Source: Bacteroidota bacterium
GTDB taxonomy: Bacteria > Bacteroidota > Ignavibacteria > Ignavibacteriales > Ignavibacteriaceae
Reading direction: 5' to 3'
Length of the DNA: 64,000 bases
Assembly (NCBI GenBank): GCA_021777835.1
Contig: JAJYDC010000015.1
Location: 1 to 64,000, forward strand
Under the pieces are notes generated by a model that was not told where the DNA came from, made no database searches, and worked only from the letters and a program-made list of their open reading frames with translations. This document shows, in pieces, positions 5,754 through 10,345 of the stretch (positions within the stretch are counted from its first letter, which is position 1; every line of letters begins with the position of its first letter). The position numbers and the translations under genes are program-made.

Positions 5754-5957
5754 TTAAGCTGTTTTATCGTCTGACTTTTTATCCGTATTAGAGGCAGGAG
5801 TTTTTATTTCTTCATCAACATCCTTTAAGGCTTTCTTAAATTCCCGAATACCTTTGCCTAATCCTTGAGCAAGATCCGGTATTTTCTTAGAGCCGAAAAG
5901 TACCATGACTACGAGTAAAATAATTAATAGCTTACCGAAACTTAAATCTTCAAACAT
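5754..5957 (-). CDS. tatA: Sec-independent translocase protein TatA/E (copy 1)
   Basis: A 67-residue protein with a short N-terminal membrane helix (about residues 6-21), the hinge FGSKKIPDLAQGLGKGIREFKK, an amphipathic helix and an acidic/lysine tail, which is the classic TatA/E plan. It forms the pore-like component for folded-protein export. It lies directly beside a second, closely similar tatA gene, so the pair is a recent tandem duplication. No tatC is in the window. Confidence 0.93.
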   Translation of the reverse strand: MFEDLSFGKLLIILLVVMVLFGSKKIPDLAQGLGKGIREFKKALKDVDEEIKTPASNTDKKSDDKTA

Positions 5958-6016
5958 TTAAACACCTATAATTATAAATTCTGTTTGTAACTACACAAAA
6001 ATAATTAGTATAATCG

Positions 6017-6211
6017 TTATTTTTTATCTGACTTATCATCTTTAGGAGTTGAGACTTTAATATCATCTTCAACATCTTTTAGATTCTTCTTGAATTCCCG
6101 AATCCCTTTACCTAAGCCCTGAGCAAATTCGGGTAATTTCTTTGCGCCGAATAAAAGTAAGACGACTACTGAAATTATTACTAATTCTACGGTTCCAATA
6201 TTATCAAACAT
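6017..6211 (-). CDS. tatA: Sec-independent translocase protein TatA/E (copy 2)
   Basis: A 64-residue paralogue of the next tat gene, with the same membrane helix and FGAKKLPEFAQGLGKGIREF hinge, but with Glu near position 8 in the membrane segment and a different N terminus (MFDNIGTVELV). It is separated from copy 1 by about 60 bp. The two may play TatA and TatB/E-like roles, which is an inference. Confidence 0.93.
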   Translation of the reverse strand: MFDNIGTVELVIISVVVLLLFGAKKLPEFAQGLGKGIREFKKNLKDVEDDIKVSTPKDDKSDKK

Positions 6212-6226
6212 ATTATCACCTGAAAT

Positions 6227-6925
6227 TTAATTCATGAAATTCTTAACTATTGCATTGAACACCAAACTACCGTCATTTTTACCTAACACCGGGTTGCATG
6301 CTCTTTCAGGATGAGGCATTAAACCTAATACATTTCCTTCCTTATTAACAATGCCGGCAATATTCAAAATTGAACCGTTTGGATTTGCATCATTATCAGT
6401 TACTCCATCAACGCTAGTATACTTAAATACTATCTGATTATTCTCAACCAACGATTTCAAAGTAACATCATCTGCAAAATAATTTCCTTCACCATGAGCA
6501 ATCGGGAACTTCAAAACTTCGTTCCTAGATAAACCTTTAGTAAAGAAAGTATCATTATTCTCAACTGAAAGATAAACATCTTTACAAACAAATTGAAGTG
6601 ACTTATTTTTCAACAAAACACCCGGAAGTAACTGAGCTTCAAGCAATATTTGGAAGCCATTGCAAATACCAATTAAGCGCCCGCCATTTTGCGAGAATTC
6701 TATAACTGAATTCATTATAGGAGAGAAGCGGGCTATTGCTCCTGTACGAAGATAGTCACCGTAGGAAAAGCCACCGGGCAGCACGATAACATCGCAATTT
6801 TGCAGGTCAGTATCTTTATGCCACAAGAAGGTGACATCAAGTCCGAGAATTTTCTTAAGTGCATAATATGCATCATGGTCACAATTAGAACCAGGAAAAA
6901 CAACTACTCCGAACTTTGGTTTCAT
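6227..6925 (-). CDS. purQ: phosphoribosylformylglycinamidine synthase, glutaminase subunit
   Basis: The class I glutamine amidotransferase subunit of FGAM synthetase. It supplies ammonia to PurL in purine synthesis. The nucleophile Cys88 is in GICNGFQ, and the His/Glu of the triad are in the late MPHPERA motif. The oxyanion-loop region FPGSNCD and [11 protein letters not shown] are present. At 232 residues it is the small, stand-alone form that needs PurS, whose gene overlaps it by 4 bp (ATGA), so the two are translationally coupled. purL is not in the window. Confidence 0.97.
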
Positions 6926-7173
6926 ATTATTTCTTCCAAAGTATATTCATAATCCTCTAAATTTGGATTGATAAGAAGTTTGCCGCAGTATTCAGAAACT
7001 TCCTTTTCGGCAGCAGATTTAACCTTGGTATCTACAGTAAATTCAACATACTTACCGATTCTTGTGTCTTTAATATTATTGAATCCAAGATGTTTAGCAC
7101 CTTTTTCAACTGCCATACCTTGAGGGTCAAGAATAGATGGTCTTCTTTTAACTATTACAATTGCTTTAAACAA
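6922..7173 (-). CDS. purS: phosphoribosylformylglycinamidine synthase subunit PurS
   Basis: An 83-residue protein with the PurS pattern: [13 protein letters not shown] near the N terminus, [14 protein letters not shown] in the middle, and the C-terminal NP..EDYEY. PurS bridges PurQ and the small PurL to channel ammonia. It overlaps purQ by 4 bp. Confidence 0.95.
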
Positions 7174-7209: not shown

Positions 7210-7929
7210 TCAGTTTTTCTTTGAAAACATGTAAAAAATATGCCTAAAAATACCAAATAGAATAATGAAAACAAATATAAAGAAAAGAGCTTTTCCGGAT
7301 GTGACGGCAAGGAGTATAATTGATATTAGCATAAAGGCAAAGTGAAGCGGTTTTTTCTTAAGTTCTTGGATAGTAAACTTCGGAAGAGTATCATATTTTA
7401 TTGTGCTTACCATTAGGAATGACAGCAGAATAACAATAGGGATTATAAGAGCCGAATATGGTTCAGTAAAACCTATAAAAGGATCATAATAAATAAGGAT
7501 AAAGGAAGCTATTGCAATACCTGAAGAGGGTATAGGTAAACCCTTGAAATATGCTTTATCAAAACCGACAAGCTGCGTATTAAATCTAGCCAATCTGAAA
7601 CCGCCTGCGATAACCAAGAGAGAGCTAATTATAATTCCCAATGTGCTGAAATTGAATAGGAATGTTTTGAAAATCAAGAAGGCAGGAGCAGCTCCAAAAC
7701 TAAGCATGTCTGCAAGAGAGTCAAGCTCTACTCCTAACTTACTGCTTGAATTAGTAAGGCGAGCTACTAATCCGTCAAGAGCGTCAAAAACAGCCGCTAT
7801 AATTATGAGCCAGGAGGCATACACATAGGATTTCTCACTTGTATTTATAATCGAATAATAGCCGCAGAATAAATTCATTGCGGTAAAAAGATTTGGAATT
7901 ACTGAAGAAGTATTTCTTGGAGATTTCAT
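7210..7929 (-). CDS. pssA: CDP-diacylglycerol-serine O-phosphatidyltransferase
   Basis: A 239-residue polytopic membrane enzyme that makes phosphatidylserine. The CDP-alcohol phosphotransferase signature DALDGLVAR followed by G66, D70 and D74 is complete (first Asp at 49). Several membrane helices follow. The gene overlaps psd by 4 bp; together they encode the two steps to phosphatidylethanolamine. Confidence 0.95.
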   Translation of the reverse strand: MKSPRNTSSVIPNLFTAMNLFCGYYSIINTSEKSYVYASWLIIIAAVFDALDGLVARLTNSSSKLGVELDSLADMLSFGAAPAFLIFKTFLFNFSTLGIIISSLLVIAGGFRLARFNTQLVGFDKAYFKGLPIPSSGIAIASFILIYYDPFIGFTEPYSALIIPIVILLSFLMVSTIKYDTLPKFTIQELKKKPLHFAFMLISIILLAVTSGKALFFIFVFIILFGIFRHIFYMFSKKN

Positions 7930-8582
7930 TGATTAGCAGATCGCTCGAATAAAATTGTTGCACCGGCAATAACCTTATCACCTGGTATTACTTTAGTATT
8001 CCATGAGGCCGGAGCAATTACATCAACGCGGCTGCCGAACTTAATCATACCGAATCTTTCGCCCATTTTTACACTATCACCTTCTTTAATCTTATAAATT
8101 ATACGTCTGGCTATAAATCCTGCCACTTGGGTAAATAGGATTTTATCATATTTTGCAGTAATACCAAACTCAGCTCGTTCATTTTCATCGGAAGCCTTAT
8201 CTTCAAAAGCAGCCAGATATTTTCCCGAATAATATTTTATATAATCAACCCTGCCGTCAATGGGGATTCTATTTACATGTACATTTAATGGTGACATAAA
8301 AATAGAAATTTGTCGTGATTCACCATTAATAAATTTATTTTCAGTAACATTTTTTACTAAAAGTACTTTGCCGTCTGCGGGAGAAACAATAATATTTTCT
8401 TTCTTAGGAGTAACTCTATCTGGGTCGCGAAAGAAATATAAAGAAAACAATAAAAACACGACTAATAAAGATACAATAAAGAATTTAACGAAAGAATTCT
8501 GGATGAGAAAACTTAGGGAGATAAGAGAAATACAAATAGCAGTTATGGTGCCGAGTGTAGAGTAACCATATTTAGTAAACAT
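7926..8582 (-). CDS. psd: phosphatidylserine decarboxylase, short (PSD-A) type
   Basis: A 218-residue proenzyme with one or two N-terminal membrane helices (about residues 9-50). The RDPDR, SPADGKV and SPLNVHVNR motifs are present, and the self-cleavage site is KFGSRVDV, where Ser184 would become the pyruvoyl group. This is the compact form without the LGST motif of the E. coli enzyme. It is coupled to pssA for phosphatidylethanolamine synthesis. Confidence 0.95.
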   Translation of the reverse strand: MFTKYGYSTLGTITAICISLISLSFLIQNSFVKFFIVSLLVVFLLFSLYFFRDPDRVTPKKENIIVSPADGKVLLVKNVTENKFINGESRQISIFMSPLNVHVNRIPIDGRVDYIKYYSGKYLAAFEDKASDENERAEFGITAKYDKILFTQVAGFIARRIIYKIKEGDSVKMGERFGMIKFGSRVDVIAPASWNTKVIPGDKVIAGATILFERSANQ

Positions 8583-8585
8583 TAT

Positions 8586-9263
8586 TTAGATGCTCGTCAT
8601 ATTTAATAATTTGTCAGTATAATGCCGAATTTCTGCGGAAGTTGATAATTTGAAAGGATCAATTACCCTATCCTCTTTATTCATTGAAATATATTTAATG
8701 CTTCGCGAATTGAATTCATCAACAAGAAAGATCCTGTCATCAGATTTTCCAAAGTAACAACTTACTTCAGCTAACAGATAGCCGCGGCGTTCAAAAAATG
8801 ATTTAAGAACAGCGTTAACTTTTGAGCAAATTCTATAAATAAGTTTCAATTCTTCATTTGTACATAGATCAAAGGAGATTAAATAGCCTTCAGAAACGAC
8901 TGAGTCTTTTTCGTCGCCGTAATGAATTTCAAACACAGGAAGATTAAGCAATTCAGATTCTTTTTTTGCAAAAATCTTGGAAGCTCTTCTATCAACGACA
9001 TTTAAGATTTTAATATGAAAGGGGTACCTTTCATGTTTAGCAAGTTTGATACTATTTTTATCGTGACTTTTAACAACAGCAGCAGGGATATGATATTCTT
9101 TGAAGAAATCAAGGAAAAATAAATTTAGTAAAGCAAGTTTTTCTCCTATCTTTTTTATTCTCAACTTCTTATTGCCATTGACTAACAAAAAGTCCGAGTA
9201 TTCAAGAATTTGATAGTCATTACCATCAAAATGATTCTCCCTTCTTACAACTTCTTCTTGCAT
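8586..9263 (-). CDS. divergent PurC (SAICAR synthetase)-like protein, probably not a SAICAR synthetase
   Basis: A 225-residue protein. From about residue 21 to 193 it follows the order of SAICAR synthetase: a YSDFLLVNGNKKL stretch like the FxDxxTAFNGxKK strand, a KIGEKLALLN helix start, HIPAAVV like GIPT, a long Lys-rich region, EELKLIYRICSKVNAVLKSFF, and DEFNSR in place of DEISPD. Key positions differ: the VVRNxxAGS loop reads KILNVVDRRAS, and the substrate-binding DEISPDTxR reads DEFNSRSIK. The glycine-rich N-terminal ATP loop is not evident. It lies 3 bp from psd, in line with purS-purQ. Homology is my reading by eye; the function is open. Confidence 0.55.
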   Translation of the reverse strand: MQEEVVRRENHFDGNDYQILEYSDFLLVNGNKKLRIKKIGEKLALLNLFFLDFFKEYHIPAAVVKSHDKNSIKLAKHERYPFHIKILNVVDRRASKIFAKKESELLNLPVFEIHYGDEKDSVVSEGYLISFDLCTNEELKLIYRICSKVNAVLKSFFERRGYLLAEVSCYFGKSDDRIFLVDEFNSRSIKYISMNKEDRVIDPFKLSTSAEIRHYTDKLLNMTSI

Positions 9264-9420: not shown

Positions 9421-9747
9421 ATGAAAGGTGGCATGCAGGGGATGTTGAAACAAGTGCAGAAAATGCAGGAAGAGATGCAAAAAGTCCAAAGTCAGCTAGG
9501 AAACCTATCGGTTACAGAAGAAGCAGGCGGAGGAATGATAAAAGCTAGTGTAAATGGCAATAAGGAATTACTATCAATACAAATTGACCCTCAGGTCATA
9601 ATACCTGCAGAAAAGGAAATATTAGAAGATTTGATAGTTGCAGCAGTAAACAAGGCACTTCAGTCTGCAAGTAAGCTTGCTGAGGACGAAATGGCGAAGG
9701 TTACAAAAGGAATGCTGCCACCCGGCTTAAACATTCCCGGATTTTAA
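9421..9747 (+). CDS. ebfC: YbaB/EbfC family nucleoid-associated protein
   Basis: A 108-residue DNA-binding protein beginning MKGGMQGMLKQVQKMQEEM, with the family's Met/Gln-rich helix, the central KASVNGNKELLSIQIDP strands and a C-terminal LPPGLNIPGF. A GGAG lies 8 bases before the ATG. It is paired with recR one base downstream, an arrangement conserved across most bacteria. Confidence 0.95.
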   Translation: MKGGMQGMLKQVQKMQEEMQKVQSQLGNLSVTEEAGGGMIKASVNGNKELLSIQIDPQVIIPAEKEILEDLIVAAVNKALQSASKLAEDEMAKVTKGMLPPGLNIPGF

Positions 9748-9748
9748 A

Positions 9749-10345
9749 TTGCAAATTGCAGAACCACTTTTAGCTGCTATTGATGAACTGAGCAAGCTTC
9801 CGAGCATCGGAAAGAAAACTGCGCAAAGACTTGCTCTGCATCTTCTAAAGAGCAACATTGAAGATGTTAATAGTCTTGTAACTGCAATCACAAACCTAAA
9901 AACAAAGATTCATTTCTGTAAGAGATGCTATAATCTTGCAACAGAGGATCTTTGCGATATATGCCAAAATGCAAAACGTGATCAGTCACTGATCTGTGTT
10001 GTAGAAGAAGCAAGTGATGTTATTGCGATAGAAAAAACTCACGAATTTAATGGCGTTTACCATGTATTGGGCGGAGTTCTTTCTCCATTATCCGGGATTG
10101 GACCTGACTCCTTAAAGATTAAAGAATTATTTAAGAGATTTGAAGAAGAAGAAATAAAAGAAATTCTTTTAGCATTGAATCCTGATACAGAAGGTGAAAC
10201 TACTACTCTTTATCTTGCAAAGCTTATTAAACCCCTTGGAATAAAGATTACACGAATAGCGAGAGGATTGCCAATCGGGGGCGATTTAGAATTTGCCGAT
10301 GAAGCAACAATAGGCAGAGCTGTTTTAGGTAGAATATTATTATAA
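9749..10345 (+). CDS. recR: recombination protein RecR
   Basis: A 198-residue recombination mediator that works with RecF/RecO at single-strand gaps. An N-terminal helix-hairpin-helix (LSKLPSIGKKTAQRLALHLL), a zinc finger (Cys57, Cys60, Cys69, Cys72) and a Toprim domain (CVVEEASDVIAIE) are all present. The start is TTG, one base after the ebfC stop. Its stop overlaps the next start as TAATG. Confidence 0.96.
   Translation: MQIAEPLLAAIDELSKLPSIGKKTAQRLALHLLKSNIEDVNSLVTAITNLKTKIHFCKRCYNLATEDLCDICQNAKRDQSLICVVEEASDVIAIEKTHEFNGVYHVLGGVLSPLSGIGPDSLKIKELFKRFEEEEIKEILLALNPDTEGETTTLYLAKLIKPLGIKITRIARGLPIGGDLEFADEATIGRAVLGRILL

Follow-up and report, generated by a model that had tools for sequence, protein, structure and literature searches.

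The window, that is the whole stretch of 64,000 nucleotides analysed here, carries a gene for a PurC-like protein that we read, with a probability of about one half, as an old operon PurC that has lost its catalytic residues and acts as a non-catalytic partner in the PssA/Psd step of phospholipid synthesis. The gene is no pseudogene and more than a leader ORF, and its product probably serves phospholipid synthesis in a second, hitherto unrecognised role. The idea of a SAICAR-synthetase fold repurposed for a new role, put forward in the sequence-only reading of this DNA, is supported by the predicted fold, by a separate PurC in the same genome, by purifying selection and by retention in four purine-negative genomes, while the new role itself is what we infer. 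The features concerned are the following.

8586..9263, minus strand: PurC-like pseudo-SAICAR synthetase, 225 aa, ATG start (from the ORF, PF01259, predicted fold and dN/dS)
8748..8825, minus strand: codons of residues 147-172 of the PurC-like protein; SKVNAVLKSFFERR is residues 147-160, the end of the long helix, followed by the strand up to FG
7926..8582, minus strand: psd, phosphatidylserine decarboxylase, short form (NF003678, 249.9 bits, cut-off 225)
7210..7929, minus strand: pssA, CDP-diacylglycerol-serine O-phosphatidyltransferase (TIGR00473, 132 bits, cut-off 107)
6922..7173, minus strand: purS (NF004630, 91.9 bits, cut-off 75)
6227..6925, minus strand: purQ (NF002957, 328 bits, cut-off 212)
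9421..10345, plus strand: ybaB and recR, divergent, the usual upstream neighbours of the locus (neighbour survey)

The locus and its conservation

The PurC-like gene heads the run psd-pssA-purS-purQ, and the same-strand order in the window goes on after purQ with two tatA-like genes and gatA. In the window psd starts 3 nt past the stop codon of the PurC-like gene, and its own stop is overlapped by pssA. The coordinates and the family models thus bear out the neighbourhood of psd/pssA and purS/purQ that had been proposed from the letters alone. The two tatA-like genes lie in tandem at 5754-6211; in relatives, tblastn with both window copies finds them in one or two places, and in three in a few loci.

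When 164 genomes of the order were searched with a profile, 87 gave a match, or 78 after removal of nine weak matches, all of family f2, that fell inside an ordinary long PurC. By family, as tallied by hand from the search tables, the gene is present in 73/80 genomes of the window's own family (f1), in 5/5 of f3 and in 0/79 of f2. In the 42 named Ignavibacterial loci (L033-L074) Psd lies downstream in every case, PssA is found in 40, the two remaining contigs coming to an end, and YbaB lies upstream in 41, the remaining contig starting at the PurC-like gene. The gene is therefore beside psd-pssA wherever we looked and the contig permits, and in most loci purS/purQ are with it. Since homologues with this arrangement of genes occur across the whole family, the ORF is real and not due to chance, and the conservation at this locus, which the sequence-only reading had left to be checked, is evident.

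It should be noted that the gene can be lost, since it is cleanly missing between ybaB and psd in f2 genomes (6/6 looked at) and in G101 and G018; G071 is also without it, and ybaB was not seen there. At least three genomes of the window's family have lost it and yet retain psd-pssA. Because these genomes and f2 (0/79) keep psd-pssA, PssA and Psd have no general need for the PurC-like protein.

A SAICAR-synthetase fold without its active site

The Pfam family SAICAR_synt (PF01259) matches the protein with 59.6 bits (cut-off 20) over profile positions 17-201 of 233, so that homology extends across most of the domain and the protein belongs to this superfamily by descent. With the PurC equivalog model TIGR00081, instead, it scores only 29.3 bits against a cut-off of 189.9. 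A structure model was made with AlphaFold2 from an alignment of 19 sequences (mean pLDDT 88, pTM 0.86). Its best match in the PDB is 3nua (Z 26.3, rmsd 2.4, 222 aligned residues); SAICAR synthetases occupy the top structural matches throughout, the first other folds appearing at Z around 7, and Foldseek also returns a SAICAR synthetase (E 1.7e-19). Structural matches beyond PurC include Rio kinases and ATP-grasp proteins. A sequence-profile search against the PDB likewise gives PurCs as best matches (E 1.8e-25). The Pfam match and the predicted fold agree with the earlier observation that the overall order of a SAICAR synthetase is kept, and the prediction recovers the very fold whose failure to appear would have spoken against it. 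Compared with PurC of the short bacterial type (PF01259 / TIGR00081), the protein has in common the fold, the length and the order of helices and strands; it differs in being without the substrate and ATP residues, in scoring below the equivalog range and in having a second PurC in its genome. This second PurC, full-length and separate (G000:C61), reaches 256 bits with PF01259 and 411 bits with NF010568 (cut-off 251), and hence the PurC-like protein is not the sole PurC of the genome.

In E. coli PurC, according to PMC3261824, Glu179 contacts ADP and Ser100, Arg94, Arg199 and Asp175 contact CAIR, with Lys11 and Lys13 as further contacts, and the first five of these residues are described there as fully conserved even in archaeal PurCs. 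In our alignment Arg94, Ser100, Asp175 and Arg199 correspond to Leu87, Arg93, Glu166 and Lys190 of the window protein, Glu179 to Tyr170, and the Gly-Lys-x-Lys loop reads E-V-V-R; nearly all substrate and ATP residues are gone. The changes in the substrate and catalytic loops that had been noticed from the sequence (KILNVVDRRAS for VVRNxxAGS, DEFNSRS for DEISPDT) are seen in the alignment as well, although the wording DEFNSRS is peculiar to the window copy, aligned relatives usually having DDFTP. An active and merely divergent SAICAR synthetase, kept as a backup PurC, would account for the overall fold and the Pfam membership, but we consider it extremely unlikely, as the five residues said in PMC3261824 to be fully conserved even in archaeal PurCs are replaced, the genome has a full PurC and, as described below, the gene persists in genomes that have lost earlier steps of the pathway.

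Residues were counted over 43 Ignavibacterial rows (the 42 loci and the window) in E. coli numbering. Position 94 is Leu in 36/43, while position 100 is Arg and position 199 Lys in 41/43 each; Asn95 is retained in 42/43, the remaining row having a gap, and a new fixed Asp is found at position 98 in 42/43. On the ATP side Lys11, Lys123, Lys177 and Glu179 have been substituted, for the most part by a mixture of residues, position 179 being most commonly His (11) or Tyr (10). Arg-Arg at 168-169, corresponding to Arg159-Arg160 of the window protein, is present in all 43 rows. The count was extended to ten divergent syntenic copies, one each from L116, L118, L125, L126, L127, L133, L134, L135, L138 and L139 (L136 and L137 were excluded as duplicates of L064 and L074), and here Arg-Arg and Asn95 are found in 10/10 and Asp98 in only 6/10. 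No feature of the PurC-like lineage is more constant in these alignments than Arg159-Arg160.

These patterns bear on whether the protein might still be an enzyme with a new substrate. The SAICAR fold would then carry out a ligase or kinase-like reaction on a molecule related to serine or to phospholipids, with Asp91, Arg92/93, Asn88 and Lys190 in the old active-site cleft. The substrate loop, now a conserved D-K/R-R (Asp in 42/43, Arg93 in 41/43), together with Lys190 (41/43), looks like a new site and not like decay; however, the ATP-side lysines and Glu179 have given way mostly to mixed residues, and the pattern is not conserved in the ten divergent copies (Asp 6/10, Arg 3/10) while Arg-Arg is. 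We regard this alternative as unlikely, though it is the strongest of the competitors.

Selection and survival without purine synthesis

The dN/dS of the PurC-like gene ranges from 0.047 to 0.239 over 13 pairs and lies between 0.047 and 0.127 in 10 of them; the highest values are 0.24 for L126-L127, 0.19 for L116-L118 and 0.17 for L033-L034, the last a pair with few changes. Among the 11 pairs for which it could be computed for both genes, it is under that of Psd in six, with one tie. No internal stop codon occurs in any PurC-like homologue among the matches listed. With its catalytic residues gone and purifying selection continuing, the protein is a pseudoenzyme with a retained function.

It could still be argued that only the translation of the frame matters, as a leader ORF coupling the translation of psd, or that the gene is a slowly decaying relic. 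The distance of 3 nt from psd, the overlap of the two genes in L116 and L118 and the loss in some lineages would fit such an explanation, but dN/dS is far below 1 and within the range of the neighbouring enzymes, the fold is predicted with high confidence and the frames listed are free of internal stops, so that we hold it to be very improbable. Both the active-PurC and the decay readings are thus disfavoured, by the replaced catalytic residues and by a dN/dS well below 1.

The gene is also retained in four genomes, G034 and G066 (one genus) and G090 and G097 (two further genera), in which a search found no full PurC, PurD, PurL or PurE, PurH being missing as well from G090 and G097; their stated completeness is 96, 93, 99 and 90%, respectively, for G034, G066, G090 and G097. 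In all four the locus reads PurC-like-psd-pssA-tatA, with purS/purQ absent from it and no remnant of them found there, and between the purine-negative G034 and G066 the dN/dS of the PurC-like gene is 0.10. G089, of the genus of G090, has likewise lost purS/purQ from the locus and retained the PurC-like gene. Since the gene persists in the purine-negative genomes and in G089 while purS/purQ are gone from the locus, its role is not purine synthesis, and its linkage with psd/pssA is independent of the purine genes, as would be expected of an accessory factor of PssA/Psd.

The same genomes largely refute the hypothesis that the protein regulates or activates purine synthesis, for instance through the full PurC or PurS/PurQ. 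The presence of purS/purQ at most loci and a mild covariation of rates with PurS and PurQ are on its side; however, the gene stays in four genomes without the pathway, purS/purQ having gone from the same locus, and family f2, most members of which carry a full PurC, manages without it (0/79). We see little chance that this hypothesis is correct.

Two observations on purine genes were made in passing. G089 has an atypical purine cluster (G089:C260:14501-22771) with PurH, a 1020-aa PurL-like frame, a 474-aa PurC/PurE frame and PurD, which looks like a re-acquisition or a contamination, its congener G090 being without the purine pathway. PurH (AICARFT) frames are present in the purine-negative G034 (G034:C89:88062-89021) and G066 (G066:C53:2767-3723), where PurH, we suppose, perhaps recycles AICAR from histidine synthesis.

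Origin, erosion and the phospholipid partner

A scan of GTDB genomes gave 32 loci (L075-L105, L108) from Calditrichota, KSB1 and allied genomes, whose PurCs stand in the order purC-psd-pssA, often with purS-purQ next; Psd lies downstream in 31/32, the contig of the other one coming to an end. In a tree of 73 rows, whose inner order is unsure because of long branches, the 22 rows from Ignavibacteria come together as a single clade (100/100) adjoining these operon PurCs, whereas the long PurC of the window genome groups with the second-copy PurCs of KSB1 (100/100), apart from the PurC-like proteins. Judged by the tree and the shared gene order, the PurC-like protein is best taken for the PurC that its lineage had in this operon from the start, and the PurC now at work for one that stems from another lineage. 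It shares with the operon PurC of KSB1 and Calditrichota the gene order, the Arg-Arg helix end and the side of the tree, and differs in that many of the latter still have 13-15 of the 15 catalytic residues and probably work as true SAICAR synthetases. One of these loci, L087, is on a contig titled Deltaproteobacteria bacterium while its PurC falls inside Calditrichota in the tree, and the genome bin is probably misnamed. The second PurCs of KSB1 (L212-L230) fall into several types, one of about 265 aa, one of about 300 aa and longer frames near 470 aa, a variety which suggests repeated acquisition.

KSB1, the phylum of G181 (82 genomes), was read more widely: 30 loci from the first search and 60 further places chosen from its list were taken, the other places listed being mostly second-type copies, and 70 operon-type loci were read; L210 is outside the 70, being a second copy in its genome and not beside psd. 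The catalytic score counts, over 15 positions of our choice, the residues identical to those of E. coli. Some of the positions come from PMC3261824 and from a paper on human PAICS (PMC9376930). We take Gly99, Asp191, Glu192 and Asp196 to be catalytic positions, and Lys123, Asp129 and Glu90 were carried over from the human enzyme, in both cases by alignment.

The scores of the 70 operon copies span 15 to 1, and Arg-Arg at 168-169 is present in every one of the 70. In the 22 copies with nine catalytic residues or fewer Arg-Arg is again without exception, and only Lys157, Leu173 and Gly181 are equally constant there. The same helix ending in Arg-Arg is already carried by the intact operon PurCs of KSB1 and allied genomes. 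If the reading is right, these copies are a natural series in which an enzyme becomes a non-enzyme while one surface stays fixed.

We also compared loci with and without a second PurC in the genome. Genomes being simply counted, single-PurC loci have a median of 15 catalytic residues (n=25) against 10 where there is a second PurC (n=45; one-sided p 3e-7), with exceptions on both sides: 3/25 single-copy loci score below 13 and 9/45 two-copy loci score 13 or more, G238 and G257 being counted as two-copy from short fragments. A tree-controlled test of the same association in KSB1 had only three independent pairs, none of them in favour, with a mean of 0.7 against.

Among the loci fetched outside the Ignavibacteria, those beside psd or pssA gave 84 distinct sequences, of which 79 have RR, three RK and two RH, and two more at contig ends have RR and RK. 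In six Calditrichota rows, of which five are next to psd/pssA and one is at a contig end, Lys or His takes the place of the second Arg. Of 25 PurCs classed as non-adjacent only that of L182 has RR, and its pssA neighbour lay under an over-long ORF call; RR is found in 0/24 of the other fetched PurCs, not beside psd or pssA, and is missing at the aligned positions from E. coli and Bacillaceae PurC. Since operon PurCs share descent, this contrast is not independent evidence, and the constancy of RR during catalytic erosion is more telling.

The mechanism we propose is that the ancestral PurC made SAICAR and also bound or tuned PssA/Psd through the Arg-Arg end of the helix, that SAICAR synthesis then passed to a second PurC, from another lineage, and that the old PurC kept only the second job. 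It would now serve the PssA/Psd step as a subunit without catalysis, for docking, assembly or regulation, and the nearly abutting genes would couple its production to that of psd. In this view a moonlighting function was exapted and has survived the enzyme activity. Linkage, selection and survival without purine synthesis are observations; physical contact with PssA or Psd is what we infer beside them. A wider reading, which we put forward tentatively and with less trust than the one for the window protein, is that in the bacteria around Ignavibacteria, Calditrichota and KSB1 PurC was early on also a structural or regulatory partner in phosphatidylserine/phosphatidylethanolamine synthesis through the Arg-Arg helix, and was stripped of catalysis, and kept as a subunit dedicated to phospholipid synthesis, whenever another PurC took over. 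If true, this would mean a hidden link between purine and membrane-lipid synthesis, laid bare by several lineages, a second function of PurC older than the loss of catalysis, and a protein partner for bacterial PssA/Psd that joins the two pathways; PF01259 would contain a whole non-purine subfamily that annotation by homology would call PurC. A literature search, with subscription journals mostly outside its reach, returned no paper on this gene order or on the PurC-like family.

AdoMet decarboxylase is a pyruvoyl decarboxylase, as is Psd. In trypanosomes it is the active partner of prozyme, a pseudoenzyme activator (PMC5201418), and the likeness is that a catalytically dead member of an enzyme family is retained as the partner of an active enzyme. 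Prozyme is a paralogue of its own partner, whereas the fold of the PurC-like protein is unrelated to Psd and PssA and the partnership with them is a putative one.

Concerning which of the two enzymes is the partner, the evidence leans to PssA over Psd without being decisive. Five KSB1 loci (L174, L178, L179, L182 and L185, in G237, G236, G240, G239 and G238, respectively) have lost psd, and there the PurC-like gene, with 10-12 of 15 catalytic residues, stands immediately before pssA. When distances were controlled for RecR, YbaB and GatA, the partial correlation with the PurC-like protein was 0.67 for PssA and 0.15 for Psd (n=34), but without the divergent lineages the two were alike (0.43 for PssA and 0.47 for Psd, controlled for two genes). 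A mild covariation was seen for PurQ and PurS too, and rate covariation is only suggestive of PssA. PssA is also more divergent where the PurC-like gene was lost (f2, G018/G071), at 0.82-1.08 against 0.59-0.64 in three f3-like loci. In the five loci without psd an ORF resembling purB lies upstream.
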